Source of the DNA: Murdochiella massiliensis
Lineage (GTDB): Bacteria > Bacillota > Clostridia > Tissierellales > Peptoniphilaceae
Assembly (NCBI RefSeq): GCF_900059565.1
Contig: NZ_FIZW01000001.1
Location: 1-64,000, forward strand
Direction of reading: 5' to 3'
Length of the DNA: 64,000 nt
Below, piece by piece: positions 30,934 through 52,840 of this stretch. A program made the position numbers and the translations under genes. Each line of letters opens with the position of its first letter. Position 1 is the stretch's first letter. The notes beneath the pieces were generated by a model that saw only the letters and a program-made list of their open reading frames with translations, ran no database searches and was not told the origin of the DNA.

Positions 30934-31150
30934 GATTTGACGATAGCGATGTGCAGCGTATATGTGAACTGTTGCACGGACAATTCATTATGGCAAACGA
31001 AGAGAAAAAGGTGCGCTTCCTTTCATGAAAAAACTCTACCGCACAGAAGAATTGTTCTACATACCATAAAGAAACGTTTAAATATATGATGCGTACTATA
31101 TTTCTTTACTAATAAAGTCGATACAATAATGGCAATCACAAGGAGGAAGC

Positions 31151-32401
31151 ATGAACGAAAAGGAATTTGCTCTGCGGAATACTATCACGGGAGTAGTGCA
31201 TGAGGCTATACAATCCTGTTTGCCGGATGCTGCGGTACGAAGAGAAATAGTCAATCTGCCGTCGCAAAAAGGAAAACGTATTCTCATTGCTGTCGGAAAA
31301 GCCGCTTATCAAATGGCAAAAGCTGCTATCGATACCGGAGTGTCCTTTGATGACGGCATTGTCATCACCAAGTATCGCCATGTTGAAGGGAAACTTCCTG
31401 GTATTCGGTGCTTTGAGGCGGGGCATCCGATTCTCGACGAAAACACTATTCGCGCAACCAAAGAGGCCATTGATTTGGTAACACCGCTCAATAAGGATGA
31501 TTTGGTTGTTTTCCTTGTATCCGGCGGTGGGTCTGCACTCTTTGAATTACCTTTGGTTCCTTTGGAAGAGCTCAAAGAGATTACGAACCAGTTACTGGGT
31601 TGTGGTGCCGATATTGTTGAAATCAATACCATCCGCAAGCGTCTATCTGATGTGAAAGGTGGCCGATTTGCGAGACATTGTGCGCCGGCAAAAGTTTATA
31701 ACATTCTTTTAAGCGATGTTTTGGGGGATAATCCCGATATGATTGCCTCCGGACCGACGGTGCCGGATGTTTCTACCGTTGCAGAGGTGGAGGAGATTTT
31801 GGCCAAGTATCCTTTGACTTTGTCTTCCAAGGCGAAAGAGCTCTGTCGTCAAGAAGCGGTGTCTACGCTGGACAATATTACCACGGTTATTTCCGGTAGC
31901 GTTTCCGAACTCTGCCAGGCAGCAGCGAAATCTTTACAAGAGCGCGGATTTCAAACGCAAATTCTCAGTACTTTTCTCTCCTGTGAAGCACGCGAAGCGG
32001 GGGCTTTCATCGCTTCGATTGCTCAAACGTTTCAGCATACCGAAAAACCGCTCGCTTTCCTGTTTGGAGGAGAAACGGTGGTGTACTTACAAGGAAAGGG
32101 GAAAGGAGGTCGAAATCAGGAATTGGTTTTTGGCGCAGCAAGGTTAATTGAGGGATTGGATAATGTGTGCGTATTTAGCGTGGGTAGCGACGGCACAGAT
32201 GGACCTACTGATGCTGCCGGAGGATACGTTACCGGCGAAACGATGAACAAGCTGCGCGCAAACGGCCTTGTCTATCGCGATGTCCTCAAAGAAAACGACA
32301 CATATACAGCACTATCGAAGATCAACCAGCTGATCAAAACCGGATCTACGGGCACAAATGTGAACGATTTAAGCGGTGTATTGATTTATCCCAACCAATA
32401 A
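31151..32401 (+). CDS. Glycerate 2-kinase, MOFRL family
   Basis: This 416-residue kinase phosphorylates D-glycerate to 2-phosphoglycerate, feeding lower glycolysis. The N-terminal GckA/TtuD domain shows VGKAAYQMAKAA, GIVITKYRH and VFLVSGGGSALFELP. The C-terminal MOFRL domain shows LAFLFGGETVV, KGKGGRNQELVF and VGSDGTDGPTDAAGGYV. A TACAAT -10-like element is at 31122-31127. It is the first gene of a three-gene operon with an IlvC-like gene and a GntP permease. Confidence 0.92.
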   Translation: MNEKEFALRNTITGVVHEAIQSCLPDAAVRREIVNLPSQKGKRILIAVGKAAYQMAKAAIDTGVSFDDGIVITKYRHVEGKLPGIRCFEAGHPILDENTIRATKEAIDLVTPLNKDDLVVFLVSGGGSALFELPLVPLEELKEITNQLLGCGADIVEINTIRKRLSDVKGGRFARHCAPAKVYNILLSDVLGDNPDMIASGPTVPDVSTVAEVEEILAKYPLTLSSKAKELCRQEAVSTLDNITTVISGSVSELCQAAAKSLQERGFQTQILSTFLSCEAREAGAFIASIAQTFQHTEKPLAFLFGGETVVYLQGKGKGGRNQELVFGAARLIEGLDNVCVFSVGSDGTDGPTDAAGGYVTGETMNKLRANGLVYRDVLKENDTYTALSKINQLIKTGSTGTNVNDLSGVLIYPNQ

Positions 32402-32411
32402 GGAGGAAAAC

Positions 32412-33398
32412 ATGACAAACATTTATTATGACAAGGATGCGAATTTGGATCTGATTATCGATAAAACGGTAGCCATTTTAGGTTATGGCAATCAGGGGCG
32501 TGCACAGGCATTAAATATGCGTGATTCAGGATTGAAACACATTATCGTGGGCAGTCGCCATGACGATTCTTTTGACACCGCGAATGAAGATGGCTTTCCG
32601 GTCTATTCCATTGCGGAAGCTAGTGAGAAAGCGGACATCATTTTCATGCTTTTGCCGGATGAAGTAGCGCCGGAAATCTTTACGGAACAAATTGCTCCGG
32701 GTTTACACGAGGGAGACATTGTCAATTTTGCTTCAGCCTATAATATCACTTTTAAACATATCGTTCCGCCTTCCTATGTGGACGTGGTTATGGCTGCACC
32801 GCGTATGATCGGTGACGGCGTACGTCAGCTTTATTTACGCGGAGAGGGCTCCCCTGCTTTTGTCGGTGTTGCACAGGATGCTTCCGGAAAGGCGTTGGAA
32901 TACGGAAAAGCGCTTTGCAAAGCTATCGGTGCGACGAAAAAAGGTGCGATCGAAGTGGATTTCATCGATGAGACCATGTTGGATCTGATGACAGAACAAG
33001 GCATTTGGCCGATTATTTATCATGTATTTGACGAAGCATTCAAACTGCACGTTGCCAAGGGTCATCCTGAGGAAGCGGTGCTGATGGAAGCATATATGTC
33101 CAAAGAACCGATGTATATGATGGAAAAAGCTGCTGAAATGGGAATGTTCAAACAGTTGCCGTTCCATTCACATACAAGTCAATACGGTCAGCTTTCCAGC
33201 TATGAAGTCTATGATCCGACGACGATTCGTGAATTTTTAGCGGAACGTTATGATCGTATTCGCAGTGGCGAATTCTCGCAGGTTTGGGATAAAGAACAAA
33301 AAGAAAATCATTTGGAAAACTTCAAGAAGCTCTCGGACCAGGCTATGCACAGTCCTCTTTCCGAAGCGGAGGAGCGCGTACTGGACGTTTTGAAATAA
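32412..33398 (+). CDS. Ketol-acid reductoisomerase-like protein (divergent IlvC homologue)
   Basis: This 328-residue protein has an IlvC-type Rossmann domain (VAILGYGNQGRAQALNMRDSG, VGSRHDDS) and a KARI-like helical domain. In the latter, FIDETMLDLMTEQG preserves the first metal Asp and Glu. Further on, LMEAYMSKEPMY keeps the first of two late glutamates, but the second of the usual E-x3-E pair is displaced, and the SNTAEYG block reads SHTSQYG. No other valine/isoleucine gene is present; it sits between glycerate kinase and a GntP permease. A catabolic isomeroreductase acting on a sugar acid is therefore more likely than branched-chain biosynthesis. AAGGAGGAAAAC precedes the start. Confidence 0.75.
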   Translation: MTNIYYDKDANLDLIIDKTVAILGYGNQGRAQALNMRDSGLKHIIVGSRHDDSFDTANEDGFPVYSIAEASEKADIIFMLLPDEVAPEIFTEQIAPGLHEGDIVNFASAYNITFKHIVPPSYVDVVMAAPRMIGDGVRQLYLRGEGSPAFVGVAQDASGKALEYGKALCKAIGATKKGAIEVDFIDETMLDLMTEQGIWPIIYHVFDEAFKLHVAKGHPEEAVLMEAYMSKEPMYMMEKAAEMGMFKQLPFHSHTSQYGQLSSYEVYDPTTIREFLAERYDRIRSGEFSQVWDKEQKENHLENFKKLSDQAMHSPLSEAEERVLDVLK

Positions 33399-33412
33399 GC
33401 AAAGCGTCTGTA

Positions 33413-33437
33413 GCATTTCGCGATCGTCCGAAATGAC
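33413..33437 (+). other. Intercistronic hairpin before gntP
   Basis: catttcg and cgaaatg form a stem around cgatcgtc, between the IlvC-like gene and the permease. It may modulate relative expression. No T-run follows. Confidence 0.35.
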
Positions 33438-33455
33438 AATGGAAAGGAGCGGCGT

Positions 33456-34790
33456 ATGCCACGCATCGCGTTAGTAATCATATGGCTTGCGATTTCCATC
33501 GCGGTCATACTCTTCTCGATCATTAAACTGAAATTAAATCCGACTATCGGCCTGCTTTTGGGCAGCTTGATCATGGGCATAGGCTGCGGCCTTCCCATGG
33601 TCGAGGTAGCGGAAAGTATGGGAACGGGGTTCGGTAATCTGATGGCTGGCATCGGAATTCCCATCGGTTTGGGATGTATCCTCGGAAAATTGCTGGAAGC
33701 CAGTGGAGGTGCGCGTGTTATAGCAGACACCTTAGTGCGTGCGACGGGTGAGAAGTATGCGCTTTATGCGCTGGGATTTGCCGCATTTTTGCTTTCGATT
33801 CCCGTCTTTTTCGACATCACGTTCATCATTCTTATTCCGTTGGCCGTGGAACTTTCCAAGTCGATTAAAAAGCCGCTCCCTTATGCGATTGGTGCGGTAA
33901 CCATTGGTGCTGCCGGTGCGCACACGCTTGTGCCGCCAACGCCAAACCCGTTAGCAGCGGCAAGCATACTGCAATTTGACCTTGGAATCATGCTCGCAGC
34001 CGGCGCTGGTGTCTGTCTCTTGGCCTGCCTTATCGGCTGGAAGGTCTATTTTATGATGTTGGATCGCGGTTTCTGGAAACCGGAAACGGATGAAACGGGC
34101 CTTCTGGAAGTGGAAGACAGTCATCCGATTCCTGAACATGCTCCGTCGTTTTTTGCAGCGCTCATTCCGCTGGTTTTACCGGTAATTTGTATTTTGCTTA
34201 GTACCGTGACCAAAGCCATGGGAGTTGAATCTACGTTCATTGACTTTATCAGCAACCGTATTATTGCCATGCTGTTAGGAACGATTGCAGCTTATATCGT
34301 TTCTGCAAAAGCGCTCGGCAAGGATATGGAAAGTATTGTAAATTCGGCAGTCGGCGATAGCGGAATTGTCCTCTTGATCACCGGCGCAGGCGGTTCGTTT
34401 GGTGCGGTGATCAGCGCTACCGGCTTTGCTGATGAAGTTGCGCAGTCCTTTAGCAGCACCAGTGCATCTCCTCTCGCTCTCGTGCTCTTTGCCTTTGGTC
34501 TGGCAGTTCTGTTCCGTATCGCCTTAGGTTCCGGAACGGTGGCTTCCATTACTACGATGAACATCATGGCCGGTTTTACTGCGATGACGACATTACATCC
34601 CGTTTTTATCGCCTTGGCTTGTCTTGCCGGCGGTATCAGCATCGGTCATATCAATGACAGCGGATTCTGGGTCGTGACGAATATGTCCGGCTATACGGTT
34701 AAAGGTGGCTTGAAATCATACACTATAGCCGGTGTATTCCTTGCGGTCGTGACAATGGCTGTGGTCATTGTTGCTGCTGTTATTGCATAA
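33456..34790 (+). CDS. GntP-family gluconate/glycerate-type permease
   Basis: This 444-residue protein has about twelve hydrophobic segments. IKLKLNPTIGLLLGSLIMGI near the start, FFDITFIILIPLA, HTLVPPTPNPLAAASIL and GHINDSGFWVVTNMSGYT near the end are GntP signatures. GntP carriers import gluconate, glycerate or related sugar acids with protons or sodium. Operon context suggests glycerate or a precursor of it. Confidence 0.9.
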   Translation: MPRIALVIIWLAISIAVILFSIIKLKLNPTIGLLLGSLIMGIGCGLPMVEVAESMGTGFGNLMAGIGIPIGLGCILGKLLEASGGARVIADTLVRATGEKYALYALGFAAFLLSIPVFFDITFIILIPLAVELSKSIKKPLPYAIGAVTIGAAGAHTLVPPTPNPLAAASILQFDLGIMLAAGAGVCLLACLIGWKVYFMMLDRGFWKPETDETGLLEVEDSHPIPEHAPSFFAALIPLVLPVICILLSTVTKAMGVESTFIDFISNRIIAMLLGTIAAYIVSAKALGKDMESIVNSAVGDSGIVLLITGAGGSFGAVISATGFADEVAQSFSSTSASPLALVLFAFGLAVLFRIALGSGTVASITTMNIMAGFTAMTTLHPVFIALACLAGGISIGHINDSGFWVVTNMSGYTVKGGLKSYTIAGVFLAVVTMAVVIVAAVIA

Positions 34791-34917: not shown

Positions 34918-35032
34918 TGCTAATTGTGGTAATAAATTCCGTCAATCGTAGCAATAGAATTCCACCAACAATGATAATAAATTTCCGCCAATCGTAGCAA
35001 TAGAATTCAGCCGATCATGGCAATTTAGTTGA
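34918..35032. repeat. 23-bp tandem repeat array upstream of DUF4143 ATPase (5 units)
   Basis: Five imperfect 23-bp units start at 34918, 34941, 34964, 34987 and 35010. The common pattern is gccaatcgtggcaata followed by aaattcc. The array is AT-rich, and the last unit runs directly into the TTGAAA -35 of the ATPase promoter. A near-identical motif array of seven units lies at 41835-41995. Phasing of 23 bp is about two helical turns, as expected for iterons or multimeric operator sites. Confidence 0.88.
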
Positions 35033-35056: not shown

Positions 35057-35090
35057 AAAGAACAGAAAGACGGATTGCGAGGTGGCGAAA

Positions 35091-36365
35091 ATGACCGTGT
35101 ATCGCAGGCGAGTGGCGGATGCCCTCTTAGCGAGAAAATTAGAGGGAAAAGGGGCCATACTGATTGAAGGACCGAAATGGTGTGGCAAGACAACAACTGC
35201 TGAACAAGTGTCGAAGAGCGTTCTTTATATGGATGATCCGAGTCGCATGGAGCAAAACCAGGTGATGGCGCAAATCAATCCGCAACGGCTATTAAAAGGG
35301 AGAACTCCGCGCTTGATCGACGAGTGGCAGCTGGCACCGAAATTATGGGATGCCATTCGTTATGAAGTAGATCACCGTCAAGATCTTGGCCAATTTATCC
35401 TTACCGGATCCACCGTACCGGTTGATACAGAAAAAATCATGCATTCGGGAACCGGACGATTTGCTTGGCTTACGATGCGAACGATGAGCCTTTATGAATC
35501 TGGCGATGCAACGGGCGATGTGAGTCTGGGTGAACTTTTTGAAGCCCCGAAATCCATTGATGGGGAATCCACTCTCAATTTAGACCGTCTTGCTTTTCTT
35601 GTTTGCCGAGGAGGATGGCCACAGGCAGTGGACATGAGAGAGGATCTTGCTCTGGATCAGGCGATAGATTATTACGATGCGGTTGTCCGCTCAGACATTC
35701 ATCGGGCCGATGCGATACAGAAAAATACGGAACGCGTGAGGCGTCTTATGCGATCGTATGCGCGAAATCAGGGATCACAAATACCTAACACGCGATTGGC
35801 TCAAGATGTTTCGACGAAAGGAGAGAACCCTATTGATGAAAGGACGGTCGCGACGTATTTAGATGCCTTGCGAAAAATTTTTGTCGTTGAGGATATGGCG
35901 GCTTGGAATCCTAACTTGCGTTCGAAAACAGCGATTCGTTCGTCGGATACGCGTTATTACGTCGATCCTTCCATCGCTGTTGCGGCTCTTGGCATTGGGC
36001 CGAAAGACTTGCTTGCGGATTTGAATACGTTTGGCCTTTTATTTGAAACGCTGTGTGTTCGTGATTTACGTGTCTTTGCGAACGCCCTCCATGGAGATGT
36101 TTTTCACTATCGTGATAAGGATGATCTGGAATGTGACGCTGTGGTTCATCTTCGTGATGGCTCATATGGCCTTATTGAAATCAAACTCGGGGGAGATCAC
36201 CTTATTGAACAAGGAGCGGAAAGTCTGCTGAAACTCAGCTCGAAAATCGATACAGAAAAAATGAAAGCACCCACGTTTTGTATGGTGCTCATTGGCGTCG
36301 GTGACTATGCTTACCGACGTAAAGACGGCGTGTATGTCGTGCCGTTAGGGTGTTTGAAGAATTAA
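35091..36365 (+). CDS. AAA ATPase with DUF4143 domain
   Basis: This 424-residue protein has an N-terminal AAA_14 domain: Walker A EGPKWCGKTTT near residue 25, LIDEWQLAP near 78 and sensor-like FILTGSTVP near 100. The C-terminal DUF4143 part (about 200-400) has the restriction-endonuclease-like strand DGSYGLIEIKLGGD preceded by DLECDAVVHL, i.e. a possible D...E-x-K core. Such ATPases occur in many copies in anaerobes and their role is unknown. Start choice: GAGG at 35079 fits the ATG at 35091 better than the upstream GTG. A truncated relative lies at 41999-42223. Confidence 0.88.
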   Translation: MTVYRRRVADALLARKLEGKGAILIEGPKWCGKTTTAEQVSKSVLYMDDPSRMEQNQVMAQINPQRLLKGRTPRLIDEWQLAPKLWDAIRYEVDHRQDLGQFILTGSTVPVDTEKIMHSGTGRFAWLTMRTMSLYESGDATGDVSLGELFEAPKSIDGESTLNLDRLAFLVCRGGWPQAVDMREDLALDQAIDYYDAVVRSDIHRADAIQKNTERVRRLMRSYARNQGSQIPNTRLAQDVSTKGENPIDERTVATYLDALRKIFVVEDMAAWNPNLRSKTAIRSSDTRYYVDPSIAVAALGIGPKDLLADLNTFGLLFETLCVRDLRVFANALHGDVFHYRDKDDLECDAVVHLRDGSYGLIEIKLGGDHLIEQGAESLLKLSSKIDTEKMKAPTFCMVLIGVGDYAYRRKDGVYVVPLGCLKN

Positions 36366-41834: not shown

Positions 41835-41995
41835 GCTATGTATGGCAATGACTACTCGCCAATCATGGAAATAAAATATCGCTAAATACGGCAACTAAAG
41901 TTAGCCAACCAAGGCAATAAAGAATTGCCAATTGTGGAAATAATTTTACGCCAAGTATGGTAATAAAATCCCATCAATCGTGGTAATTTTATTGA
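41835..41995. repeat. 23-bp tandem repeat array (7 units) before truncated DUF4143 copy
   Basis: Seven units start at 41835, 41858, 41881, 41904, 41927, 41950 and 41973, exactly 23 bp apart, with pattern gccaatcatggcaata plus seven AT-rich bases. It is the same family as the array at 34918. The final unit again ends in attga, giving TTGAAG as a -35-like element at the same place as in the intact locus, but the -10 region is missing. Confidence 0.88.
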
Positions 41996-41998: not shown

Positions 41999-42223
41999 AT
42001 GGCGGCTTGGAATCTCAATTTGCGCTCAAAAAAAGCGATTCGTTCATCCGATACGCGCTATTATGTTGCTCCTTCCATCGCTGTAGCTGCCCTTGGTATC
42101 GGTCCGAAGGATTTGATTGCGGACCTCAACATGTTGGGCTTTCTGTTTGAAACGATGTGTGTCCGTGATTTGCGTATCTTTGCCAATGCTCTCAACGGCG
42201 ATGTTTTTCACTATGGGGATAAG
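41999..42223 (+). pseudogene. Truncated DUF4143 ATPase fragment
   Basis: These 75 codons (AAWNLNLRSKKAIRSSDTRYYV...GDVFHYGDK) correspond closely to residues 269-343 of the ATPase at 35091. The whole ATP-binding half and the C-terminal end are missing. After 42223 the frame continues into unrelated sequence to a stop at 42301. The junction with the upstream array lies at ttgaagaatggcgg, suggesting deletion through short homology between the post-array sequence and the gaggatatggcgg stretch of the gene. Confidence 0.88.
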
Positions 42224-42302
42224 TGTGGTGAGATGATCGTTGTGATCATTCCTACTACATATTACTTGAGTGACTCAGATGTTAAGCAGTGTTTGAAATG
42301 AA

Positions 42303-44225
42303 TCAATGAGCTTCTAATCTATTGCGAAACTCTCTCCAAACATCTTCAAAGAAGAAATCTCTATTTGGGATGGGTCGAGGATCTCTCCAAGAAATCTCGA
42401 TATTTCCGCTATTCCATTTAATCTCTTGAATTTGTTGAAACATTACATTGTCTATTACAGAATAGCGCAAATATTCAGGGAACCTTTCTGATGCTAAAAA
42501 GCCACTGGCATCATAGTAAAGTGCTCCTCCTCGGCTTTTATGTTGCGTATTAGAATAATTAAGCATTGCGCTTAAATATGCAATCTGTGAGATTAAAATA
42601 TCGCGATACTTGTATGCCAGATGAAGTTCTGAACTATTGTTGACGTAATAATTTTGGTGAAGCTGAGCTAGTTCATTCTGCGCCTCTTCCAGCACCACAA
42701 TCATTTCTTGAGGATTGCGAAACGCGGAAGCAGATCTAGTCATGCGATGCTGAGCATATTTAATGTTATCATAAAAATTTTTATCCCTTTTTATGCCTGT
42801 TACCATAACAGGCATAATAGCATCAGCAATTTGAGAGGAAACGCAATCAAGCCAATCTTTCTCTGACAAAAATAGTATGTTTTTTTGAGCGCTAATACAT
42901 TGTGCAGCGCGAATAGCTCCGACTTGACCAGCGTTTAAAGCAGAACCACCCGGCCGATATATACCATGGGTTGAGCTGCATTCTCCGATAGCGAACAAAC
43001 CAGGAACAGAGGTCTCCCACCAACAATTTACAGAAAGTCCACCATTATTATGTTGAGCACTCAAAGTGATTTCAAGAGGAGCTTTTGCTAAATCAATACC
43101 CTTCTTTTTATAAAACTGTATTGCAGGCGAGTTCATGCGCTTTAGACGATCAATAGGTGTACCCAAGCATGCGCCAGCATTTTTTAAATATCGATAGGCT
43201 TCTTCTGACAAGCTACTATAATTTATTTTTTCAAATGGATTATTTTTATAATCTAACCATACACGACGTCCTTTCTTTATTTCTAGAAAGACCAGGATAT
43301 CAATTATTGAGGAACCATCAAGCACTTTAGCACTATCAAAAGGCCATTGATAACCTTTTAAAAATACCAATGACAGCATCTCATAGCGATTCGAAAAATA
43401 ATCTGAAAGAAAGTCATGCTCGTTACAATTAGAATCTGTCGAGTAGAAGCGAGGAAGGGCTTGCATATATGTTCCTGATACATTCCAACGCGGCTTTATT
43501 GAAGAGAGACCATATTGCCACTCAGTGAGATTTTGTCCGACTGCACCAGCCTCAAAAGCAACTCCAGTTGAACCGTTTTGCCCAACGGGGTATACTACAT
43601 TCTCATACATAGCCGCTGGACCTCCTGTTGCCCAGATAATATTTTTACAATGAAATGCTACGTATGGCTCACAATGATGTTTATGCGCTGCAGAAAGATC
43701 AAGACATAAGAGACCACAAGCTTGTTCTTCTATTTTTAAAATTTTGATTGCCATCAAGTGATTAAAAATTGGGACCTGTTTCTTTTCGACGTTGTTTTGT
43801 AATGCTTCAGTCATCATCCTCGAAGTGTAAGGGCCAGCACTTGTAGCTCGCATTTTGGGATCATTGTCAGTTTTATAACCAACGTATTCGCCATAATAGT
43901 TGCAAGGAAAATCAACACCAAGATCTACAAGATGCATAAAAGCACGAGTTGACAGTGCTGCTTCACATAATGCATGATCTCCGTCCACGCATCCACCTTC
44001 AAATAGTGTTTGCGTCATGTCATCGATACTATCTTTCATACCGCCCGATAATGTCAATTTGTAATATGTTTGTTTGTCAGAACCTGCATTTCGAGATGTA
44101 CCGAGATTTATACTTTCCGTGATTATTGCAATGTTTTTCTGTCCAAAGGACCATAATCTATCCGCAGCTGCAAATCCGGAGGCTCCACTTCCTACGATAA
44201 TTGTATCAAAACAATGAATTTTCAT
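42303..44225 (-). CDS. FAD-dependent oxidoreductase of the fumarate reductase/succinate dehydrogenase flavoprotein family
   Basis: This 640-residue protein opens with a dinucleotide fold (DTIIVGSGASGFAAADRLWSFG) and contains IIWATGGPAAMYEN. The second FAD half is LSAQHNNGGLSVNCWWETSVPGLFAIGECSSTHGIYRPGGSALNAGQVGAIRAA. The layout is that of the FAD_binding_2 family (aspartate oxidase, APS reductase A, enoate-type reductases). There is no signal peptide or FMN domain, so it is cytoplasmic. It is divergent from a GntR regulator and linked to TRAP and CoA genes, suggesting oxidation or reduction of an imported organic acid. The start at 44225 follows AAGGAGAGAGA on the minus strand. Confidence 0.78.
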   Translation of the reverse strand: MKIHCFDTIIVGSGASGFAAADRLWSFGQKNIAIITESINLGTSRNAGSDKQTYYKLTLSGGMKDSIDDMTQTLFEGGCVDGDHALCEAALSTRAFMHLVDLGVDFPCNYYGEYVGYKTDNDPKMRATSAGPYTSRMMTEALQNNVEKKQVPIFNHLMAIKILKIEEQACGLLCLDLSAAHKHHCEPYVAFHCKNIIWATGGPAAMYENVVYPVGQNGSTGVAFEAGAVGQNLTEWQYGLSSIKPRWNVSGTYMQALPRFYSTDSNCNEHDFLSDYFSNRYEMLSLVFLKGYQWPFDSAKVLDGSSIIDILVFLEIKKGRRVWLDYKNNPFEKINYSSLSEEAYRYLKNAGACLGTPIDRLKRMNSPAIQFYKKKGIDLAKAPLEITLSAQHNNGGLSVNCWWETSVPGLFAIGECSSTHGIYRPGGSALNAGQVGAIRAAQCISAQKNILFLSEKDWLDCVSSQIADAIMPVMVTGIKRDKNFYDNIKYAQHRMTRSASAFRNPQEMIVVLEEAQNELAQLHQNYYVNNSSELHLAYKYRDILISQIAYLSAMLNYSNTQHKSRGGALYYDASGFLASERFPEYLRYSVIDNVMFQQIQEIKWNSGNIEISWRDPRPIPNRDFFFEDVWREFRNRLEAH

Positions 44226-44305
44226 TCTCTCTCCTTCGGCGTTTATGTTTAGAAGACAATATACAGATAAGACAAAGTGCTTTATCATCTTAATTCAAAT
44301 ATACA

Positions 44306-44427
44306 AAATGATCAGATGTTTGTAAATGGATTATTAATAAAACAAGCGAAAAATACAAAATATACGTCAAAAGAGCGTGTTATTTTTTTCTTTTGTAAGG
44401 CCTTTACAAATAATCATCTGATGATTA
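44306..44427. promoter_or_regulatory. Candidate GntR operators in the divergent region
   Basis: A perfect 17-bp palindrome taatcatctgatgatta lies at 44411-44427, 82 bases before the regulator gene. A related site, aaaatgatcagatgtt (44306-44321), lies near the flavoprotein side and shares the catctgat core on the opposite strand. A further inverted repeat ttgtaaggcctttacaa is at 44393-44409. Paired sites in a divergent intergenic region next to an FCD-type GntR gene suggest autoregulation and control of both directions. Confidence 0.6.
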
Positions 44428-44508
44428 AACTGAACATAGTAGTTAAATCAATTTTTGCTATCAAAAGGAAAAGGATTGCCGACAATGAATGGAGAAAGGA
44501 GGATAATT

Positions 44509-45213
44509 TTGAAGAAGCGTGCAAGTGATCATGTCATTGAGTACATTGAGAAAAATATTCGGAATGGCGTATGGAAAAGTGGCATGAAGATTTCCACAGA
44601 AGATCAGTTGCAAGAAAAAACTGGCGTAAGTAAGGCGAGTATTAGAGAGGCAGTTGAACATTTAGCCGCCAAAAACATCTTAACTAAACGTCAAGGAGAT
44701 GGCACTTATATTAATGATGTTGATGCGGGTACATTAATGGATCAGTTAACTCCGTATTTATTGCTTGGGCCAAAGGATACAATTTCAATTCTTGAATTTC
44801 GCGAGGCAATAGAGCCAGCTTGTGTTCAGATGTTCATCGATTGCTATGATCAAGAAAACGTAAAAATACTGGAAGATCAGCTTCGCGCAATGGAATTATG
44901 TCAAAGTGACATAGAAAGCTTTCATAAGGCTGATATGGAATTTCATCTTGTGATTGCGATGGGAACTGGTAATCCTCTAATGTCTAAAGTTATGGAAATT
45001 CTTCAAGAGCCGATTATTCAGTACCATTTGACAGCGCGACACACCATCGGCTCACGTACAGGACTTGAAGAACACCGACTCATTTTAAATGCGATAAAAC
45101 AAAAAGACAAAGAGCTGGCATCATTATTGATGCGCAGGCACATTCAGCGATCAAAAAAGGATATGCTTGCATACAATCTTGAGAACGAGAAGAAAAAACA
45201 TGAAGAGAGCTAA
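44509..45213 (+). CDS. GntR-family (FadR/FCD) transcriptional regulator
   Basis: This 234-residue protein has a winged helix (VWKSGMKISTEDQLQEKTGVSKASIREAVEHLAAKNILTKRQGDGTYI) and a C-terminal FCD ligand domain. That domain has histidine and aspartate metal-type positions (FHKADMEFHLVIA, GLEEHRLILNAI). The start is decided by the ribosome site: AAAGGAGG at 44495-44502 fits a TTG at 44509, while the ATG at 44485 lies upstream of that site. It probably represses the flavoprotein and the TRAP operon in response to the imported acid. Confidence 0.88.
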   Translation: MKKRASDHVIEYIEKNIRNGVWKSGMKISTEDQLQEKTGVSKASIREAVEHLAAKNILTKRQGDGTYINDVDAGTLMDQLTPYLLLGPKDTISILEFREAIEPACVQMFIDCYDQENVKILEDQLRAMELCQSDIESFHKADMEFHLVIAMGTGNPLMSKVMEILQEPIIQYHLTARHTIGSRTGLEEHRLILNAIKQKDKELASLLMRRHIQRSKKDMLAYNLENEKKKHEES

Positions 45214-45274
45214 CTATTTACAGATAAAATAAGCTTTCATCAAAAAACACAATAAATTAAATGGAGGAGTTGAA

Positions 45275-46354
45275 ATGAAAAAGAACATTTGCACAATGGT
45301 GATGTCGCTAATTATGGTGCTATGCTTGTTCATCATGTCAGGCTGCAGTAGTACAGGACAAGAAATAGACAGCGAAAGTGGAACTAAAACGACGGAAAAT
45401 TCACAACAAGCTTCTGACAATTTGGACTCCAAAATGCCTGAATATCGACTTATTGCAGCACATGTATCTACTGAAAAACATTCATTTCACATTGGAATGA
45501 TGGAATTTAAAAAGCAGGTCGAAGAGAAGTCTAATGGACGTATCGAAATTGAAGTTCATCCTAATGGCGAATTAGGCGGAAATGAAGATGAACTTGTGCA
45601 GAAAATGGCCACTGGCACAGTAGATGTGATCATTTCCGCACCATCCTTTATGGCCCAGAGTGTTTCCGAGGTGGACCTTCTTTCAGTACCTTATCTTTTC
45701 CAAGATGTTGATCACTGGGAAAAAGTTATGGATGGCGACGTTGGCAAGGAAATGAGCAAAATTGTCGAGGAAAAATCCGGAATGTTTCATGTCCTCGGGT
45801 ATTTCAAAGATGGTGTCCGCTCAATGTATACGATAAAACCAGTTCACTCTATGGATGATATGAAAGACCTTAAGTTTCGTATTCAAAATAGCCCAACGCA
45901 GGTTGCATTTTGGACAGAGCTTGGTGTACAACCTACATTTGTGGCATTTAATGAGATCTATCAAGCGTTACAGAATGGTGTGATTGATGGCGCGGAAAAC
46001 TCATACTCACAGATTTATCAGCAAAAACACTATGAGGTATGCAAGAATGTCACTGAGACAGAACATGATGTTGCAACGCGCTTTTTCCTCATCTCTAAGT
46101 CAAAATATGACTCTATGCCAAGTGATCTCCAGGCTATTATAGATGAGTCTGCAGAGATTGCTGTTAAAAAGCAACGTGAAGAAGATGCTGAGATGAGCAA
46201 TGAGTGCAAACAGATGATGATAGACGCAGGAGTTAATTTTATTCAACTAGATAAGCAACCTTTGATTGAAAAAACTGAACATATCCGTGAAGATGCAGCT
46301 CACAAGCTTGAGCTCGATGCGATGTTAAAAACCATCAATTCTCTAAAAAAGTAA
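45275..46354 (+). CDS. TRAP transporter substrate-binding lipoprotein (DctP)
   Basis: This 359-residue protein starts with a lipoprotein signal (MKKNICTMVMSLIMVLCLFIMSGC, lipobox IMSGC). The DctP fold follows: KSNGRIEIEVHPNGELGGNEDELVQKMATGTVD and FRIQNSPTQVAFWTELGVQPTFVAFNEIYQALQNGVIDGAENSY. The Arg in the FRIQNSP block binds the ligand carboxylate, so the substrate is an organic acid. First of a dctPQM set. Confidence 0.93.
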   Translation: MKKNICTMVMSLIMVLCLFIMSGCSSTGQEIDSESGTKTTENSQQASDNLDSKMPEYRLIAAHVSTEKHSFHIGMMEFKKQVEEKSNGRIEIEVHPNGELGGNEDELVQKMATGTVDVIISAPSFMAQSVSEVDLLSVPYLFQDVDHWEKVMDGDVGKEMSKIVEEKSGMFHVLGYFKDGVRSMYTIKPVHSMDDMKDLKFRIQNSPTQVAFWTELGVQPTFVAFNEIYQALQNGVIDGAENSYSQIYQQKHYEVCKNVTETEHDVATRFFLISKSKYDSMPSDLQAIIDESAEIAVKKQREEDAEMSNECKQMMIDAGVNFIQLDKQPLIEKTEHIREDAAHKLELDAMLKTINSLKK

Positions 46355-46372
46355 AGGAGATAGATATTTGTA

Positions 46373-46858
46373 ATGAAGAAAGCATCGGATTTCATTGAGA
46401 AAATTCAGAGTTGGTTTAGCATGGCTCTTTTCGTTGTTTTCCTGATCTGTATTGTTCTTCAAATTCTTTCACGCTATATCCCTTTCATCAAAGTGATAGG
46501 CACGGAAGAAATAGCTACCTATTCATTCATATGGGCAATCCTCATGGGCGCAGCGGTTGAGCTCAAACGCAAAGAACACTTTGCGTTTGAGTTCGTACGT
46601 GCCAATGCAAAAGGGACCTTACACCTTGTATTGGAGACGGCAATTTATGGACTAGTTATTGCCTTTAGTCTATATATTGCGTTAAGTGGAGTGCAATTAA
46701 CTAGACAGTTTTGGAACTGGAATCTTACTTCATTTAACTTTATAAGCCAAAGATATATTTGGTCATCTCTAATCGTTTGCGGTGCTACAATGGCTTTTTA
46801 TGGCCTCTGTAATTTAGTTCTAGTGTACCAGAATTATAATAAGGAGAAAGAAAAATGA
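46373..46858 (+). CDS. TRAP transporter small membrane subunit (DctQ)
   Basis: This 161-residue protein has four hydrophobic segments, with LSRYIPFIKVIGTEEIATYSFIWAILMGAAVELKRKEHFAF, typical of DctQ (YTEE..R-like core and E..H). It stabilises the large subunit. It overlaps dctM by four bases (ATGA). Confidence 0.92.
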   Translation: MKKASDFIEKIQSWFSMALFVVFLICIVLQILSRYIPFIKVIGTEEIATYSFIWAILMGAAVELKRKEHFAFEFVRANAKGTLHLVLETAIYGLVIAFSLYIALSGVQLTRQFWNWNLTSFNFISQRYIWSSLIVCGATMAFYGLCNLVLVYQNYNKEKEK

Positions 46859-48144
46859 ATGTCATCTTATTAGTTCTCTGCTTTTTGCTTCTCCTATTTA
46901 TTGGTATGCCGATTGCGTATGATTTAGGAATAATATCGCTTTTAGGTATAGTCCTTCTTGGTGGGGTTCCTTTGGTTACTGTAGCGCAGAAGATGTTTAG
47001 TGGACTAAACTCCTTTATTTTATTAGCCGTTCCATTATTTATTCTCGCTGCAAATCTAATGAACAGGGGTGGTATTTCTGCTCAATTGGTTGAAGTAGCG
47101 ATTGCAATGGTGGGGCACTTTAAAGGGGGGCTTGGGCATGCCAATGTTCTCGTATCTATGATTTTTGCAGGCATTTCTGGATCTTCACAAGCAGATACCG
47201 CTGGAATTGGAAAAATTTTAATTCCAAGCATGGAGAAAAATGGATACTCTAAAGAAGAGGCCGTAGGTGTTACTGCTGCTTCATCAACCATTGGCGTAAT
47301 AATTCCACCAAGTATTCCGATGGTGATTTATGGTAGTCTTGCTAGCGCATCTGTTGGCGCTTTATTTTTAGGTGGAATAATTCCGGGAATCTTAATTGGA
47401 CTTGCCCAAATGTTTATTGTCCATCTTCACGCAAAGAAATATAACTATCCTAGTACAACACGTGTCCCGTTATTAGATGTATTGAAAATGATGATCAAAT
47501 ATCTGCCATCCTTAATCACCCCTGTAATCATCATTGGTGGCGTTGTTCTCGGGTTAGTTACTCCAACCGAAGCTGCTGCAGTAGGCTGTGTTTATGCTTT
47601 GATTCTTGGATGTGTGGTTTTTAAAACAATTAAGCTTAGAGATTTGCCGGGGATTTTTATCGAAACGATTACCATGACTGCACAATCTTTATTTGCGCTT
47701 GCTACTGCAACTGCATTAGGTCAGCTTCTGAGTTACTATAATGTATCAAGATTGGTCGAACAATTTTTTTCTACCTATCATATGAATTGGATAGTGTTTC
47801 TAATTCTTACTATTCTGTTCTTTCTGTTTTTAGGAACTTTTATGGACGCCATTCCTGCTATGACACTGTTTGTACCAGTACTTCTTCCAGTGGCAACAGC
47901 AATAGGCGTTACACCGATTCATTTTGGCTTAGTCGTTGTAATTACTCTGGCGATTGGATTGATTACTCCTCCTTACGGAATTTGTCTTTTGATTGCGGGG
48001 GCAATCGCGAAACTTCCGGTGGAGAGATCTTTTTCTGCGGTTATGCCGTATTTGATAGCCATTCTATTCGTTCTATTATTAGTGGCTTTTTTTCCGGATA
48101 TTGTATTGTTTTTTCCAAAGTTACTAAGGCCAGAGTGGTTTTGA
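46855..48144 (+). CDS. TRAP transporter large membrane subunit (DctM)
   Basis: This 429-residue protein has about twelve helices. FIGMPIAYDLGI, FAGISGSSQADTAGIGKILIPSMEKNGY, TAASSTIGVIIPPSIPMVIYG and GLVTPTEAAAVGC are the family motifs. It uses a sodium gradient. It starts inside the dctQ stop. The CoA-transferase gene follows after 19 bases. Confidence 0.94.
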   Translation: MNVILLVLCFLLLLFIGMPIAYDLGIISLLGIVLLGGVPLVTVAQKMFSGLNSFILLAVPLFILAANLMNRGGISAQLVEVAIAMVGHFKGGLGHANVLVSMIFAGISGSSQADTAGIGKILIPSMEKNGYSKEEAVGVTAASSTIGVIIPPSIPMVIYGSLASASVGALFLGGIIPGILIGLAQMFIVHLHAKKYNYPSTTRVPLLDVLKMMIKYLPSLITPVIIIGGVVLGLVTPTEAAAVGCVYALILGCVVFKTIKLRDLPGIFIETITMTAQSLFALATATALGQLLSYYNVSRLVEQFFSTYHMNWIVFLILTILFFLFLGTFMDAIPAMTLFVPVLLPVATAIGVTPIHFGLVVVITLAIGLITPPYGICLLIAGAIAKLPVERSFSAVMPYLIAILFVLLLVAFFPDIVLFFPKLLRPEWF

Positions 48145-48163
48145 AAAAGAAAAGGAAGTAAAA

Positions 48164-49681
48164 ATGGCTAAAATAATCACACTTAAGGAAGCGGTTTCTT
48201 TAATCAAAGACAATCAGACAATAGCAATTTTAGGCTCAGGTGGTGGGGTTTGTGAACCTTCTGCTACGCTTTTAGCATTAGCGAATCGTTATAAGGAAAC
48301 GAGGAGCCCTAGAAATTTGACCCTATATCATGCAAACGGAATAGGGGATAAAGAGAGAATTGGCACAGATTGCCTTGCTCAGGAAGGTCTTATTAAGAGA
48401 GATGTTGCTGGCCATTGGGCAATGGCACCCAAAATGGCGAAACTTGCACAGGAAGAAAAAATTGAAGCATACAATTTTCCTCAAGGTGTGTTATCTCAAA
48501 TGTATCAAGCAGTTGCTTCGAATAAGCCAGGTGTTATAACAAAAACGGGCTTATATACTTTTATTGATCCACGTATTGAAGGTGGAAAAATGAACCAGTC
48601 AACAAAAGATGACTACGTCAAAATTTTAGAACTGGATGGTGAAGAATGGCTTTATTTTCCATCAATACATTTTGATATCGGGTTGATTCGAGGAACTACG
48701 GCGGATTGTAATGGGAACATTACCTACGAAGAAGAGGCTGCTATTCTAGATGGATTATCTCTTGCTCAAGCGGTGCATAATTGTGGCGGAATAGTGATTG
48801 CACAAGTAAAATATTTATCTGAACATCCTGCCAAAGCGAAAGATGTTGTGATTCCAGGAATATATGTGGACTATATTGTCTTAGATCCTTCACAGCAACA
48901 AACTTGTGAACGAGCATATGATCCTTCGCTTGCCGGCAATATTTTTACTCCGTATGATTCAGTGCCTAAATTACCAATGGGAGCAAGAAAGATTATAGCT
49001 CGACGTGCTGCTAAGGAGCTAACGAAGAACGCCATTATAAATTTAGGCGTAGGAATCCCGGATGGCATTTCATCTATTGCTCAAGAAGAAGGGTATCTAG
49101 ATCAACTCAATTTTACTGTTGAACAGGGTATTATTGGCGGAATGCCAATGGGAGGGATTATATTCGGCGTGTCACACAACGCTAGTGCGATGATAGACCA
49201 AACGGCTCAATTTAATTTCTATGATGGTGGCGGGCTAGACTGTTGCTTCCTTGGCATGGCTCAGGCAGATATGATGGGCAATATTAATTCCAGCAAAACA
49301 GGCAATTTACTTTCTGGATGTGGTGGTGCTATCAACATTTCTCAAAATGCTAAGAAAGTAGTGTTTTGTGGAACATTTACGGCAAAAGGATTGAAGGTAA
49401 ATGTGAGTGACCATAAATTAAATATTTTGCAAGAAGGCCAGATTAATAAATTTGTCGAAATGGTTGATCAAATCACTTTTAGCGGAAAATATGCAAATCA
49501 AATTGAGCAACCTGTATTGTATGTTACAGAACGGGCAGTATTCCGCTTACTTAATGGGAAAATGGTGTTGACAGAAGTTGCTCCAGGTATCGAATTAGAA
49601 AAGGACATCCTGAACAAAATGCAATTTCGTCCAGAAATTGCAAAGGATCTAAAACAGATGGAAGAGTCCATCTTTGAATAA
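48164..49681 (+). CDS. Propionate/acyl-CoA:acetate CoA-transferase family protein
   Basis: This 505-residue protein contains fused alpha and beta halves. The glutamate of the FTVEQGIIGGMPMGG segment near residue 325 matches the position of the catalytic Glu of Pct/YdiF enzymes. NLGVGIPDGISSIA and FYDGGGLDCCFLGMAQ are also typical. It would activate the imported acid by taking CoA from acetyl-CoA or another donor. It overlaps no gene, but the crotonase starts 13 bases later. Confidence 0.88.
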   Translation: MAKIITLKEAVSLIKDNQTIAILGSGGGVCEPSATLLALANRYKETRSPRNLTLYHANGIGDKERIGTDCLAQEGLIKRDVAGHWAMAPKMAKLAQEEKIEAYNFPQGVLSQMYQAVASNKPGVITKTGLYTFIDPRIEGGKMNQSTKDDYVKILELDGEEWLYFPSIHFDIGLIRGTTADCNGNITYEEEAAILDGLSLAQAVHNCGGIVIAQVKYLSEHPAKAKDVVIPGIYVDYIVLDPSQQQTCERAYDPSLAGNIFTPYDSVPKLPMGARKIIARRAAKELTKNAIINLGVGIPDGISSIAQEEGYLDQLNFTVEQGIIGGMPMGGIIFGVSHNASAMIDQTAQFNFYDGGGLDCCFLGMAQADMMGNINSSKTGNLLSGCGGAINISQNAKKVVFCGTFTAKGLKVNVSDHKLNILQEGQINKFVEMVDQITFSGKYANQIEQPVLYVTERAVFRLLNGKMVLTEVAPGIELEKDILNKMQFRPEIAKDLKQMEESIFE

Positions 49682-49694
49682 TGGAGGTCATGAG

Positions 49695-50468
49695 ATGGCT
49701 ACACGTATTACATGGACGAAGCGAGAAAATATCGCATACATAACTATCATTGAGGAAATCAATAATCGACCTTGTACATTAGATTGGAATTCACTGAGTA
49801 TGCTTGAGAACGTCATTGATGAAATAGGCAAGGATAGCGAAGTTCGAGCGGCGGTTTTGCAAAGTGGCTCAGAAAAATCATTTGTAGTTGGCGCCAACAT
49901 CAATACGCTAGAAACATTAAAGGCGGATAATATCATGTATTGGGTTAAAAATGGGCATCGTGTTTTTAACAAAATTCAACAATTGCCTATTCCAGTAATT
50001 GCTAAGGTTGAAAGTTATGCTCTTGGGGGTGGTCTGGAACTTGCTATGGCGTGCGATATGATTATCGCAACTGAAAATGCAAAATTTGCCCAACCTGAGG
50101 CATCGCTTGGAGTTATGCCTGGTTGGGGCGGAAGTTATCGTCTAGCTAAATTGATCGGGCAAAATCGTGCAAAAGAAATGTTTTTCACAGGTCACCAAAT
50201 TACTGCACAACAAGCTTATGAATGGGGGATTGTGAATCACGTTTGTAAAAAAGAGGAGATAGATGCCAAGATCAACGAGGTTCTTGATGCAATTTTAAAC
50301 AATGAAGAAAAAGTTCTACAGTTCGTCAAGGAAATAATCAACACACACAATCAGAAGGATGTTTCTGTTAATGCATATGAAGAGGCAAATACCTCATATG
50401 TTTGTATGTCCTCAGAATCTACATTGACACGTCTCCAAGAGTTTTTTAAGAACAGAAGAAAAAAATAA
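49695..50468 (+). CDS. Enoyl-CoA hydratase/isomerase family protein
   Basis: This 257-residue crotonase has the oxyanion segments VVGANINTLETL and ALGGGLELAMACD and the two glutamates (GGGLELA, AQPEASLGVMPGWGGSYRL). It differs from the butyrate crt of this window in the N-terminal part (INNRPCTLDWNS in place of RPEALNALNS), so it probably acts on a different acyl-CoA. The ATG at 49695 follows GGAGG. Confidence 0.88.
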   Translation: MATRITWTKRENIAYITIIEEINNRPCTLDWNSLSMLENVIDEIGKDSEVRAAVLQSGSEKSFVVGANINTLETLKADNIMYWVKNGHRVFNKIQQLPIPVIAKVESYALGGGLELAMACDMIIATENAKFAQPEASLGVMPGWGGSYRLAKLIGQNRAKEMFFTGHQITAQQAYEWGIVNHVCKKEEIDAKINEVLDAILNNEEKVLQFVKEIINTHNQKDVSVNAYEEANTSYVCMSSESTLTRLQEFFKNRRKK

Positions 50469-50559
50469 CTATTGATGAGGAGATCATCTGAAATAATATA
50501 TGCGCGATGGGAGGCACAAAGAGATGATAGTAAACATCGAAAGGTAGGGGGGGCTGAAC

Positions 50560-51522
50560 ATGAACGAAGTGCTTCAATTGATTTCAAAAATAGGAATTGT
50601 TCCGGTTATTGTTATTGAAGAAGAAGAAAATGCTGTTCCATTAGCAAGAGCGCTTGTGGAGGGTGGATTACCTGTTGCGGAGATCACTTTTCGCACAGAT
50701 TCGGCAGAAAAAGCTATTCGAGCAATAAAACGTGAAGTACCGGAAATTTTAGTTGGTGCAGGTACAATTTTGTCACGAGATCAGCTTGATCGTGCACTTA
50801 CTGCAGGAGCAGAATTTATCGTTACACCAGGATTTAACCCAAGTATCGTAAAATATGGATTATCAAAGAATGCACTTATCCTTCCAGGGACAGCGACTGG
50901 TGGCGAAATGGAACAAGCTATGGCCATGGGAGTAGAAGTTGTTAAATTCTTTCCAGCAGAAGACAATGGAGGAGTAAAAAAATTAATGGCTATGGCGGGT
51001 CCGTACACAGATTTAATGTGGCTGCCCACCGGTGGGATCAATTTAACAAATCTTATTGATTATTTATCGTTTGATAGAATTATCGCCTGTGGGGGAACAT
51101 GGATGGTTAAAAAGGATTTAATCGAGAGAAAGGACTGGAGGCAGATTACACAAACTTGTAAAGAAGCAGTGCATACAATGTTAGGAATTGAACTTGCTCA
51201 TGTTGGTATAAACTGCGATAGTGAGAAGAAAGCAAAAGAAATGGCTGAACATGTTAGTTCATTGTTAGGATATTCACCTAGACAGATGAGAAAATCTTGG
51301 TTTGTAGGTGATGACATTGAGTATATGAATCAACCTGGATTTGGTCAGAATGGACATATAGCTTTTAAGACGAACAGTGTAAAAAGAGCAATGTATCATT
51401 TATCTCGTAAGGGGATAGAATTTGATTCTAGTTCTATATCTTACAACTCTAAAGGTGACCCAACGCTGGCATATATAAAGGGGAACTTTGGAGGATTTGC
51501 CATTCATTTGGTAAATCGATGA
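50560..51522 (+). CDS. KDPG/KHG aldolase fused to a VOC (glyoxalase-like) domain
   Basis: This is a 320-residue protein. Residues 1-205 are a class I KDPG aldolase: VAEITFRT has the catalytic Glu, VGAGTILSRDQ and FIVTPGFNPS the phosphate site, and VVKFFPAE the Schiff-base Lys. Residues 215-320 form a second domain (LAHVGINCDSEKKAKEMAEHVSSLLG..., ending FGGFAIHLVNR) of vicinal-oxygen-chelate type. Single-domain KDPG aldolases are about 210 residues, so the C-terminal half is an extension. It follows the crotonase gene after 91 bases. Confidence 0.83.
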   Translation: MNEVLQLISKIGIVPVIVIEEEENAVPLARALVEGGLPVAEITFRTDSAEKAIRAIKREVPEILVGAGTILSRDQLDRALTAGAEFIVTPGFNPSIVKYGLSKNALILPGTATGGEMEQAMAMGVEVVKFFPAEDNGGVKKLMAMAGPYTDLMWLPTGGINLTNLIDYLSFDRIIACGGTWMVKKDLIERKDWRQITQTCKEAVHTMLGIELAHVGINCDSEKKAKEMAEHVSSLLGYSPRQMRKSWFVGDDIEYMNQPGFGQNGHIAFKTNSVKRAMYHLSRKGIEFDSSSISYNSKGDPTLAYIKGNFGGFAIHLVNR

Positions 51523-51592
51523 GGTATGAAAGATATTCATTAATATTCACTCTAACTATGGAAAAACTGCATCATATTACAAGGAGAAAATA

Positions 51593-52621
51593 ATGTTTAA
51601 AATCGTAACCTTCGGCGAGCTAATGATTCGTCTTCAACCATATAATTATGAGCGATTTGTACAAGCAAATTGTCTTTCTTTTACTTTTGGCGGCGGAGAG
51701 GCCAATGTCGCAGTTTCCTTAGCAAATTATGGCGCTAATGCGACTTTCGTGACAAAACTTCCTTCTCATGCGATTGGGCAGTGTGCAGTTAACTCCTTAC
51801 GACGTTATGGGGTTTATACAGATAAAATTACCCGAGGTGGGAGTCGTGTTGGAATTTACTTTAATGAGAAAGGAGCCTCTCAGCGCGGAAGTCTATGTAT
51901 CTATGATCGAGAACATTCTGCTATTGCTGAAGCTACAGTTGATGATTTTGATTGGGATGATATTTTTGATGGAGCAGATTGGTTTCACTTTACGGGCATT
52001 ACGCCTGCTCTAGGCTCCAATTTGGTCGAAATCTGCAAGCGGGCTTGTATAGCTGCAAAAAAACATGGAGTGAAGATTTCATGCGACTTAAATTATCGCC
52101 AAAAGCTTTGGTCCCGGGCTGAAGCTAGTGAAGCAATGTCGGAATTATGTAAATATGTTGATTTATGCATCGCAAATGAAGAGGATGCGAAAGATGTTTT
52201 TGGAATTGAGTCAGTAGCAACTGATGTTTATGCAGGTGAAATAAATAGGGAAGGATATAAAAGTGTTGCAAAACAGCTTGCTGAGAGATTTGATTTTGAA
52301 AAGGTTGCTATAACTCTGAGAGAATCATATTCTGCGAGTGATAATGGCTGGTCGGCAATGTTATATGATGTGGACTCTAACGCATGTATTTTTTCAAAGA
52401 AGCATGAGCTCAGAATAGTTGACCGTGTAGGCGGTGGAGATAGTTTTAGTGCTGGATTAATCTTTGCTCTACTAAGCAAAAAAAATCTTAAGGATTCAAT
52501 AGAGTTTGCTGTAGCTGCATCGGCACTTAAACACTCTATTGAAGGAGATTACAACATGGTAACGTATGAAGAGGTACAAAAACTTGTTGAAGGCGATGGT
52601 TCTGGACGCATTCAACGGTAA
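51593..52621 (+). CDS. PfkB-family kinase, probably 2-dehydro-3-deoxygluconate kinase
   Basis: This 342-residue sugar kinase has FGELMIRLQP, the substrate loop FTFGGGEANVAVSLANYGA near residue 32, DLNYRQKLW typical of KDG kinases, and the anion-hole/catalytic RVGGGDSFSAGLI near 285. With the preceding KDPG aldolase it would complete KDG to pyruvate and glyceraldehyde 3-phosphate. The start follows AAGGAGAAAATA. Confidence 0.85.
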   Translation: MFKIVTFGELMIRLQPYNYERFVQANCLSFTFGGGEANVAVSLANYGANATFVTKLPSHAIGQCAVNSLRRYGVYTDKITRGGSRVGIYFNEKGASQRGSLCIYDREHSAIAEATVDDFDWDDIFDGADWFHFTGITPALGSNLVEICKRACIAAKKHGVKISCDLNYRQKLWSRAEASEAMSELCKYVDLCIANEEDAKDVFGIESVATDVYAGEINREGYKSVAKQLAERFDFEKVAITLRESYSASDNGWSAMLYDVDSNACIFSKKHELRIVDRVGGGDSFSAGLIFALLSKKNLKDSIEFAVAASALKHSIEGDYNMVTYEEVQKLVEGDGSGRIQR

Positions 52622-52804
52622 GCCAACAAGTAGACCTATGATGCTTTTGGTTTTAGCGCTTTCTCCATAATTCATCGAAAATCTACAGGTGAAAAAATAT
52701 AATGGTGGTGGATAGAGATCTTCTTAGCATATTTGTTACCTTTTACCAAAAAACTGATTTCAAGAAGGTCTGAAAATAATAGTATGCATGATTTATTTAT
52801 ATTT

Positions 52805-52840
52805 TAAGCCGTTCATTGTTATTGGTGGACGGCTTAATTT
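52805..52840 (+). terminator. Terminator of the sugar-acid unit
   Basis: aagccgttca pairs with tggacggctt (one G-T) and is followed by AATTTCATT. The stem is good, the T-run moderate. Between 52622 and 52998 I see no other feature; the stretch is very AT-rich. Confidence 0.6.

Follow-up and report, generated by a model that had tools for sequence, protein, structure and literature searches.

A flavoprotein, TRAP transporter and CoA enzyme gene block of Murdochiella massiliensis as a candidate sugar-acid regulon ending in the 2-keto-3-deoxygluconate branch

The first 64,000 nucleotides of contig NZ_FIZW01000001.1 of Murdochiella massiliensis (RefSeq assembly GCF_900059565.1; this whole stretch is hereafter referred to as the window) contain a block of nine genes in which a flavoprotein adjoins genes for a tripartite ATP-independent periplasmic (TRAP) transporter, CoA enzymes and the metabolism of 2-keto-3-deoxygluconate (KDG). 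An initial annotation made from the sequence alone had named all nine, and our profile searches found them at the same positions and in agreeing families. The flavoprotein gene (42303–44288, minus strand; 661 residues as called, with an ATG at about 44225 as the likely start) encodes an FAD_binding_2 protein (Pfam PF00890, 71 bits) and diverges from the other eight genes, which run on the plus strand from regulator to kinase, as had been described. These encode a FadR-subfamily GntR regulator with GntR and FCD domains (44455–45213; Pfam and NCBIfam profile matches), the TRAP solute-binding protein DctP (45275–46354; PF03480, 257 bits), the small permease DctQ (46373–46858; Pfam), the large permease DctM (46855–48144; Pfam and NCBIfam), a family-I CoA-transferase of the YdiF/FadX type (CoAT; 48164–49681), an enoyl-CoA hydratase of the crotonase family (ECH; 49674–50468, with ATG 49695 as the likely start; PF00378, 158 bits), an aldolase for 2-keto-3-deoxy-6-phosphogluconate (KDPG) or 4-hydroxy-2-ketoglutarate (KHG), hereafter Eda (50560–51522), and a KDG-kinase-type PfkB kinase, hereafter KdgK (51593–52621). 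The intergenic gap after the GntR gene is 61 bp, and those between dctP and the kinase gene range from -8 to 91 bp. A terminator-like hairpin of 15 pairs with a T-rich tail (52804–52837, plus strand) closes the unit, while the other plus-strand stems within the block have 5–8 pairs; the terminator-like sites number 11 in total, near the shuffled mean of 8.1 (sd 2.8).

DctP, DctQ and DctM together make up a TRAP transporter. The CoAT has a PF01144 CoA_trans domain and matches E. coli YdiF (2ahu) at E 3e-150; against the FadX model it scores 414 bits, short of the cut-off of 750. Inspection of its translation by eye revealed the EXGXXG-like motif EQGIIG, which we take to be the catalytic glutamate motif of family-I CoA-transferases. 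In ECH, the glutamates of the motifs GLELA and QPEAS, presumably the two catalytic glutamates of crotonase, are conserved in seven of seven aligned sequences. Eda exceeds the cut-offs of both TIGR01182 (253 bits; cut-off 156) and NF004325 (268 bits; cut-off 241), and its C-terminal extension of about 110 amino acids matches no Pfam family; the Eda open reading frames (ORFs) at two other loci, L133 and L135, are of similar length (324 and 320 amino acids). The best matches of the kinase are KDG-kinase models, yet it stays below their cut-offs (NF041633, 557 bits against 700; NF041332, 248 bits against 440), and it is the only KdgK match at E<=1e-60 in the genome. The block thus holds an Eda-type aldolase and a KDG-type PfkB kinase, the lower branch of the Entner-Doudoroff route. 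The claim that no sugar-acid isomerase or dehydratase is present was borne out for the block, where the sole (de)hydratase-type enzyme is ECH.

The Pfam, NCBIfam and PDB matches of the flavoprotein include no close characterised relative. Its best score against the NCBIfam fumarate reductase/aspartate oxidase models is 90 bits, far from the cut-off of 718, and its best PDB match is an L-aspartate oxidase (E 4.6e-9). R426, numbered by the first row of a 15-sequence alignment, is invariant in the 15 sequences, and the arginine of L-aspartate oxidase with which it aligns by sequence is presumably the residue holding the substrate carboxylate; R261 is not invariant in the same set. An AlphaFold2 model built from four sequences had a mean pLDDT of 48 and was not used. 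At E<=1e-60 the flavoprotein occurs in 55 of the 391 genomes sampled from the class, which we take to be Clostridia; the matches have 42–61% identity, and some of them are partial. We read the neighbourhoods, with genes assigned by translated BLAST, at all 55 loci including the window, many of them ending at contig ends. A short-chain dehydrogenase/reductase (SDR) lies near the flavoprotein at 50 loci, an Old Yellow Enzyme (OYE) at 43 and both at 42, so that in most relatives an OYE-SDR pair occupies the place of CoAT-ECH. A 2-hydroxyacid dehydrogenase is found at 14 loci and a sugar-isomerase-like protein at 12; a uronate context is given by heparinase II/III-type genes at 4/55 loci and by glucuronate isomerase at 2/55. 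The flavoprotein frame is split in two pieces at L003 (4141–5657) and at L128 (2460–4374), by sequencing error or decay.

Genes of the KDG branch recur near the flavoprotein in other genomes. At eight of the 55 loci (the window, L049, L061, L066, L118, L120, L123 and L128) an Eda gene, a KdgK gene or both are found no more than 10 kb from it, with a contiguous OYE-SDR-flavoprotein-Eda-KdgK order at L118, the order OYE-Eda-SDR-flavoprotein at L128 and an aldolase-kinase fusion at L123. KdgK alone lies within this distance at six loci, against about 0.35 expected at random in genomes of 2.6 Mb (random-placement p 3e-5, computed with a count of 5). KdgK (E<=1e-60) is present in 46 of the 55 flavoprotein genomes and in 136 of the 336 others (Fisher p 1.2e-9), and among genomes without a match to the glucuronate isomerase UxaC it is present in 16/17 with the flavoprotein and 46/201 without it (p 5.2e-9); these co-occurrence p values are inflated by shared ancestry and lifestyle, the counted genomes being interrelated and including incomplete ones, which lessens their weight for the interpretation given below.

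The genome of the window, 99.3% complete, has no match to UxaC (detected in 7 of 14 known genomes used as a control), to the mannonate dehydratase UxuA (5/14), to the isomerase KduI (6/14, five of them above the cut-off) or to the ILV_EDD domain of the IlvD/Edd dehydratases (14/14). Standard uronate genes elsewhere in the genome, whose presence the initial annotation regarded as damaging to a new pathway, were therefore not found among these four families. For PRK12745, an SDR family related to KduD, the best score in the genome is 142 bits against a cut-off of 250; the SDRs of E. coli and of L075 (G018, outside the 55-genome count) both exceed this cut-off. One enzyme of the mandelate racemase family (MR_MLE) scores above the cut-off, with 176 bits, at C2:1277 kb, and the NCBIfam models nearest to it are sugar-acid dehydratases, all far below their cut-offs. 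Its surroundings (L137; same genome, contig 2, 1268000–1287000) include a crotonase and a butyryl-CoA:acetate-type CoA-transferase below its model cut-off, as well as, by eye, a sodium:solute symporter, an acyl-CoA dehydrogenase and EtfBA; this looks like another acid cluster with its own CoA pathway.

The CoAT/ECH pair stands beside the flavoprotein in the window, at four loci from metagenome-assembled genomes (MAGs), one of them with a broken flavoprotein, and in the ytfB-rplI interval of E. coli, as part of an island that also has an SDR. L002 conserves the order flavoprotein-DctPQM-CoAT-ECH-GntR, and L003 is alike except that its flavoprotein frame is split; in L004 and L005 the flavoprotein, CoAT, ECH and GntR occur with a different transporter. 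Gene sets related to the block are present in further bacteria of the gut and in about a quarter of complete E. coli genomes. In Rhizobium CCGE531, CoAT-ECH and an aldehyde dehydrogenase are accompanied by a sugar ABC importer, two GMC enzymes, a Gfo/Idh protein, the flavoprotein, a sugar kinase and an aldolase. The linkage in L002 and L003 answers the concern that the CoA genes might prove unlinked in relatives. Most members of the flavoprotein family stand without CoA genes. Conversely, related CoATs (46–53% identity) occur in 27 other genomes among the 391, and at the 29 loci L084–L112, read with about 1.5 kb flanks, the flavoprotein was seen at 0/29 and an adjacent crotonase at 3/29.

In the CoAT tree, the window and the four MAGs contribute five flavoprotein-linked CoATs, which form a single clade (100/100). 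The CoAT ORF of L040 is incomplete. The E. coli CoAT falls outside this clade with a weakly resolved placement. Flavoprotein-linked CoATs formed one group in 0 of 200 bootstrap trees, which suggests that CoATs may have been recruited separately in E. coli and Rhizobium; the branches are long, the Rhizobium row is 37% filled, and a single origin is compatible with the starred branches. The flavoprotein tree, built without L003 (in two pieces and also left out of alignment A1), L131 and L132 (too short), shows the CoAT/ECH-linked flavoproteins (seven rows) to be polyphyletic, with at least four gains or losses forced by well-supported branches. Since the CoAT clade is single and the linked flavoproteins are polyphyletic, the CoAT-ECH cassette and the flavoprotein have probably swapped partners. 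This exchange, as read from the trees, in turn suggests that the flavoprotein may have the same function whichever partners it stands with, and that CoAT-ECH can replace OYE-SDR.

The transporter gives a hint of the imported compound. The best solved relatives of DctP are TRAP binding proteins (PDB 4nx1/4ovp, 4x8r, 4p1l and 4x04), whose ligands we take to be hexuronates. Another of its solved relatives, 4n91, binds D-glucuronate, and the glucuronate site of STM3169 consists of Asn35, Gln36, Glu74, Arg150, Arg170, Asn210 and Asp237, according to PMC7660916. With respect to the site as given there, R182, R202 and N242 of the window DctP match the spacing of Arg150, Arg170 and Asn210 (STM3169 itself being unaligned). 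The imported acid is probably sugar-like, to judge from these likenesses, and not necessarily glucuronate.

The gap between the flavoprotein and GntR genes contains a palindrome-like sequence, ATCATCTGATGAT (44413–44425), which is predicted as a probable operator, and a partial copy of it (44308–44320). With up to two substitutions, ATCATCTGATGAT gives seven strand-wise hits in the 64 kb window, at about five places, two of which are in this gap. A resembling sequence is present in the flavoprotein-dctP gap of L002, and none was seen in that of L003. The palindromes are consistent with a GntR protein that controls the two divergent units together.

The block is clearly set off by its composition, as the initial annotation had pointed out: its genes have a GC content of 0.38–0.40 and a third-position GC content (GC3) of 0.27–0.38, against 0.48–0.55 and 0.52–0.66, respectively, in 26 flanking ORFs of at least 200 codons that were picked mechanically. 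GC drops already near 29.6 kb, the genes at 29.7–41.8 kb having values of 0.38–0.50; the block is thus the most AT-rich portion of a larger mosaic region, which ends abruptly on the right near 53 kb. Abutting the left edge, a plus-strand ORF (41999–42301) copies in its first part, to 42223, a portion of an ATPase gene at 35082–36365: its product is 85% identical over 75 residues to residues 272–346 of the ATPase, and the two form a direct repeat of 225 nucleotides (81%). This fragment is a possible junction. In a scan at E<=1e-30 of 130 genomes, the flavoprotein family was found in the genome of the window and three others, and in none of the four genomes of the same genus in that set. The composition, the ATPase fragment at the edge and the lack of the flavoprotein in the same-genus genomes therefore indicate that the block was probably acquired horizontally from another bacterium; the nearest loci, L002 and L003 of Lachnospiraceae MAGs, have a GC content of 0.46, above that of the block. 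Short near-tandem repeats of about 23 nucleotides precede both the ATPase gene (34934–35024) and its fragment (41920–41987), and together with the ATPase they possibly represent a mobile or repeated element. Further upstream, a single run at 29656–34790 comprises a glycerate 2-kinase and a ketol-acid-reductoisomerase-like enzyme, identified by profile matches, and a CdaR-like regulator and a GntP-type permease, identified by eye; it has the appearance of an independent unit for a sugar acid or for glycerate.

Taken together, we lean by a narrow measure towards reading the block as a regulon that was acquired horizontally and serves a single C6 sugar acid resembling a hexuronate or hexonate. 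The initial annotation had offered either two linked pathways or one new route, and the linkage in other genomes, such as L118, favours the latter. The two halves of the block probably form a single KDG-forming sugar-acid route, because Eda and KdgK are linked to the flavoprotein, KdgK accompanies it in genomes without UxaC, and the genome yielded no match to UxaC, UxuA, KduI or IlvD/Edd. Linkage and co-occurrence support the KDG end of this route, and the gene content makes a CoA step plausible. DctPQM would import the acid, and the CoAT would form its thioester. The crotonase might then dehydrate this thioester between the alpha and beta carbons to an enol, which would become a 2-keto-3-deoxy acid, with CoA passed on. 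The flavoprotein, which belongs to the carboxylate-acting FAD_binding_2 kind, would carry out a two-electron step at the same carbons, before or after dehydration, and may act directly on the imported acid. KdgK and then Eda would carry the 2-keto-3-deoxy acid to pyruvate. On chemical reasoning, OYE-SDR could achieve an equal net dehydration by oxidation, elimination and reduction. A more tentative proposal, which we consider possible and somewhat doubtful, is that CoAT and crotonase dehydrate a C6 acid in the form of its CoA thioester, alongside fumarate-reductase-like flavoproteins of a new subfamily; CoAT and crotonase would replace the classical dehydratases and be interchangeable with OYE-SDR.

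Several observations weigh against the single sugar-acid route. No KDG gene was present in the stretch read at 47 of the 55 flavoprotein loci, several of them cut by contig ends, and the operons of L002 and L003 have neither Eda nor KdgK. Only at one of the 55 class loci, the window itself, does a CoAT lie near the flavoprotein. UxaC (E<=1e-30) is itself commoner in the flavoprotein genomes (38/55 versus 135/336 in the others, p 5.7e-5), so the link between KdgK and the flavoprotein may come partly from a shared sugar-acid lifestyle. The conversion of a hexuronate to KDG requires a net 2[H] and the operon holds no SDR; the flavoprotein could be the source, but its reduction of an unsaturated uronate would yield a 4-deoxyuronate and not KDG. 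A hexonate would require no net redox, and the flavoprotein step is then unexplained. By residue offset, the place of Asp237 is Arg in the DctPs of the window and L002 and Asp in that of E. coli. By offsets that gaps may shift further upstream, the DctP of the window has Glu-Lys at the place of Asn35-Gln36 and Glu at that of Glu74, and the E. coli DctP has the Asn-Gln pair and Gln at the place of Glu74. The extra Arg could accommodate an additional negative charge on the ligand.

In a rival reading, the flavoprotein, CoAT and crotonase would degrade a TRAP-imported short acid that is not a sugar, with Eda-KdgK as a separate KDG unit at the operon end. CoA-transferase plus crotonase is a classic combination for short acids, Eda is preceded by the widest gap from dctP onward (91 bp), the stretches read in E. 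coli and Rhizobium carry no annotated Eda, and such an arrangement accommodates L002 and L003. We regard it as rather unlikely, however, given the Eda and/or KdgK genes at seven further flavoprotein loci, the company of KdgK in 16 of 17 flavoprotein genomes without UxaC, and the lack of another KDG source among the four families searched. Alternatively, the flavoprotein alone might open the sugar-acid route and the CoAT and crotonase work downstream, in pyruvate fermentation of the lactate-acrylate or butyrate type: YdiF/Pct-like CoA-transferases serve fermentation, related CoATs occur in 27 other genomes, and the 29 loci read with short flanks show no flavoprotein and seldom a crotonase beside the CoAT. 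This appears improbable in view of the position of the window CoAT within the clade of flavoprotein-linked CoATs, the recurrence of CoAT-ECH near the flavoprotein family in E. coli and Rhizobium, and the lack of an acyl-CoA dehydrogenase or lactoyl-CoA dehydratase in the block. The scores of the MR_MLE enzyme, with sugar-acid dehydratase models as its best NCBIfam relatives, raise the further idea that it makes the KDG which the Eda and KdgK of the window consume; because it sits among what appear to be CoA pathway genes of its own and every dehydratase model scores far below cut-off, we give this idea very little credence. Three other assignments were discarded. A carnitine-type CoA pathway is at odds with a family-I CoAT, CaiB being a type III CoA-transferase; quinate/shikimate degradation is chemically possible, but the genes noticed by eye near the flavoprotein were those for uronate and KDG, not for shikimate; and we noticed no gene that would support oxidative ether cleavage of lactyl sugars.

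If the single sugar-acid route is correct, the activation of a sugar acid as a thioester would be a surprising way into the Entner-Doudoroff route. The flavoprotein family is common and its single scanned member lies far below the cut-offs of the NCBIfam models shown, so that a single assay might lead to the annotation of a great number of genes; the family may also provide a KDG route for genomes without glucuronate isomerase. Our searches of the open-licence literature yielded no paper recognisable as a description of such a route or of the E. coli ytfB-rplI island.

Compared with known systems, the block shares uronate TRAP import and the KDG-KDPG end with the glucuronate TRAP systems of the STM3169 type that work with UxuABC (PMC7660916); it differs in its flavoprotein and CoA enzymes, in a genome without a UxaC or UxuA match and in a pocket that is only partly conserved. 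The L-gulonate pathway of Haemophilus influenzae likewise combines a TRAP carrier, KdgK and KdgA in one cluster, and according to PMC5788505 it uses two dehydrogenases and UxuA, whereas the block has none of these and UxuA was not found in the genome. The E. coli ytfB-rplI island, of which at least 80% of the query is present in 1440 of 5426 complete genomes, has the order TetR-SDR-sugar phosphate isomerase-ECH-CoAT-FAD protein-TRAP, its gene names being generic. Its flavoprotein is 33%, its CoAT 45%, its ECH 31% (over 180 residues) and its DctP 33% identical to those of the window, and it differs in having an SDR, an isomerase and a TetR regulator and in lacking Eda and KdgK. Finally, the OYE-SDR-flavoprotein triad of the class has a homologous flavoprotein and, at several loci, nearby KDG genes, with OYE and SDR in place of CoAT and ECH.

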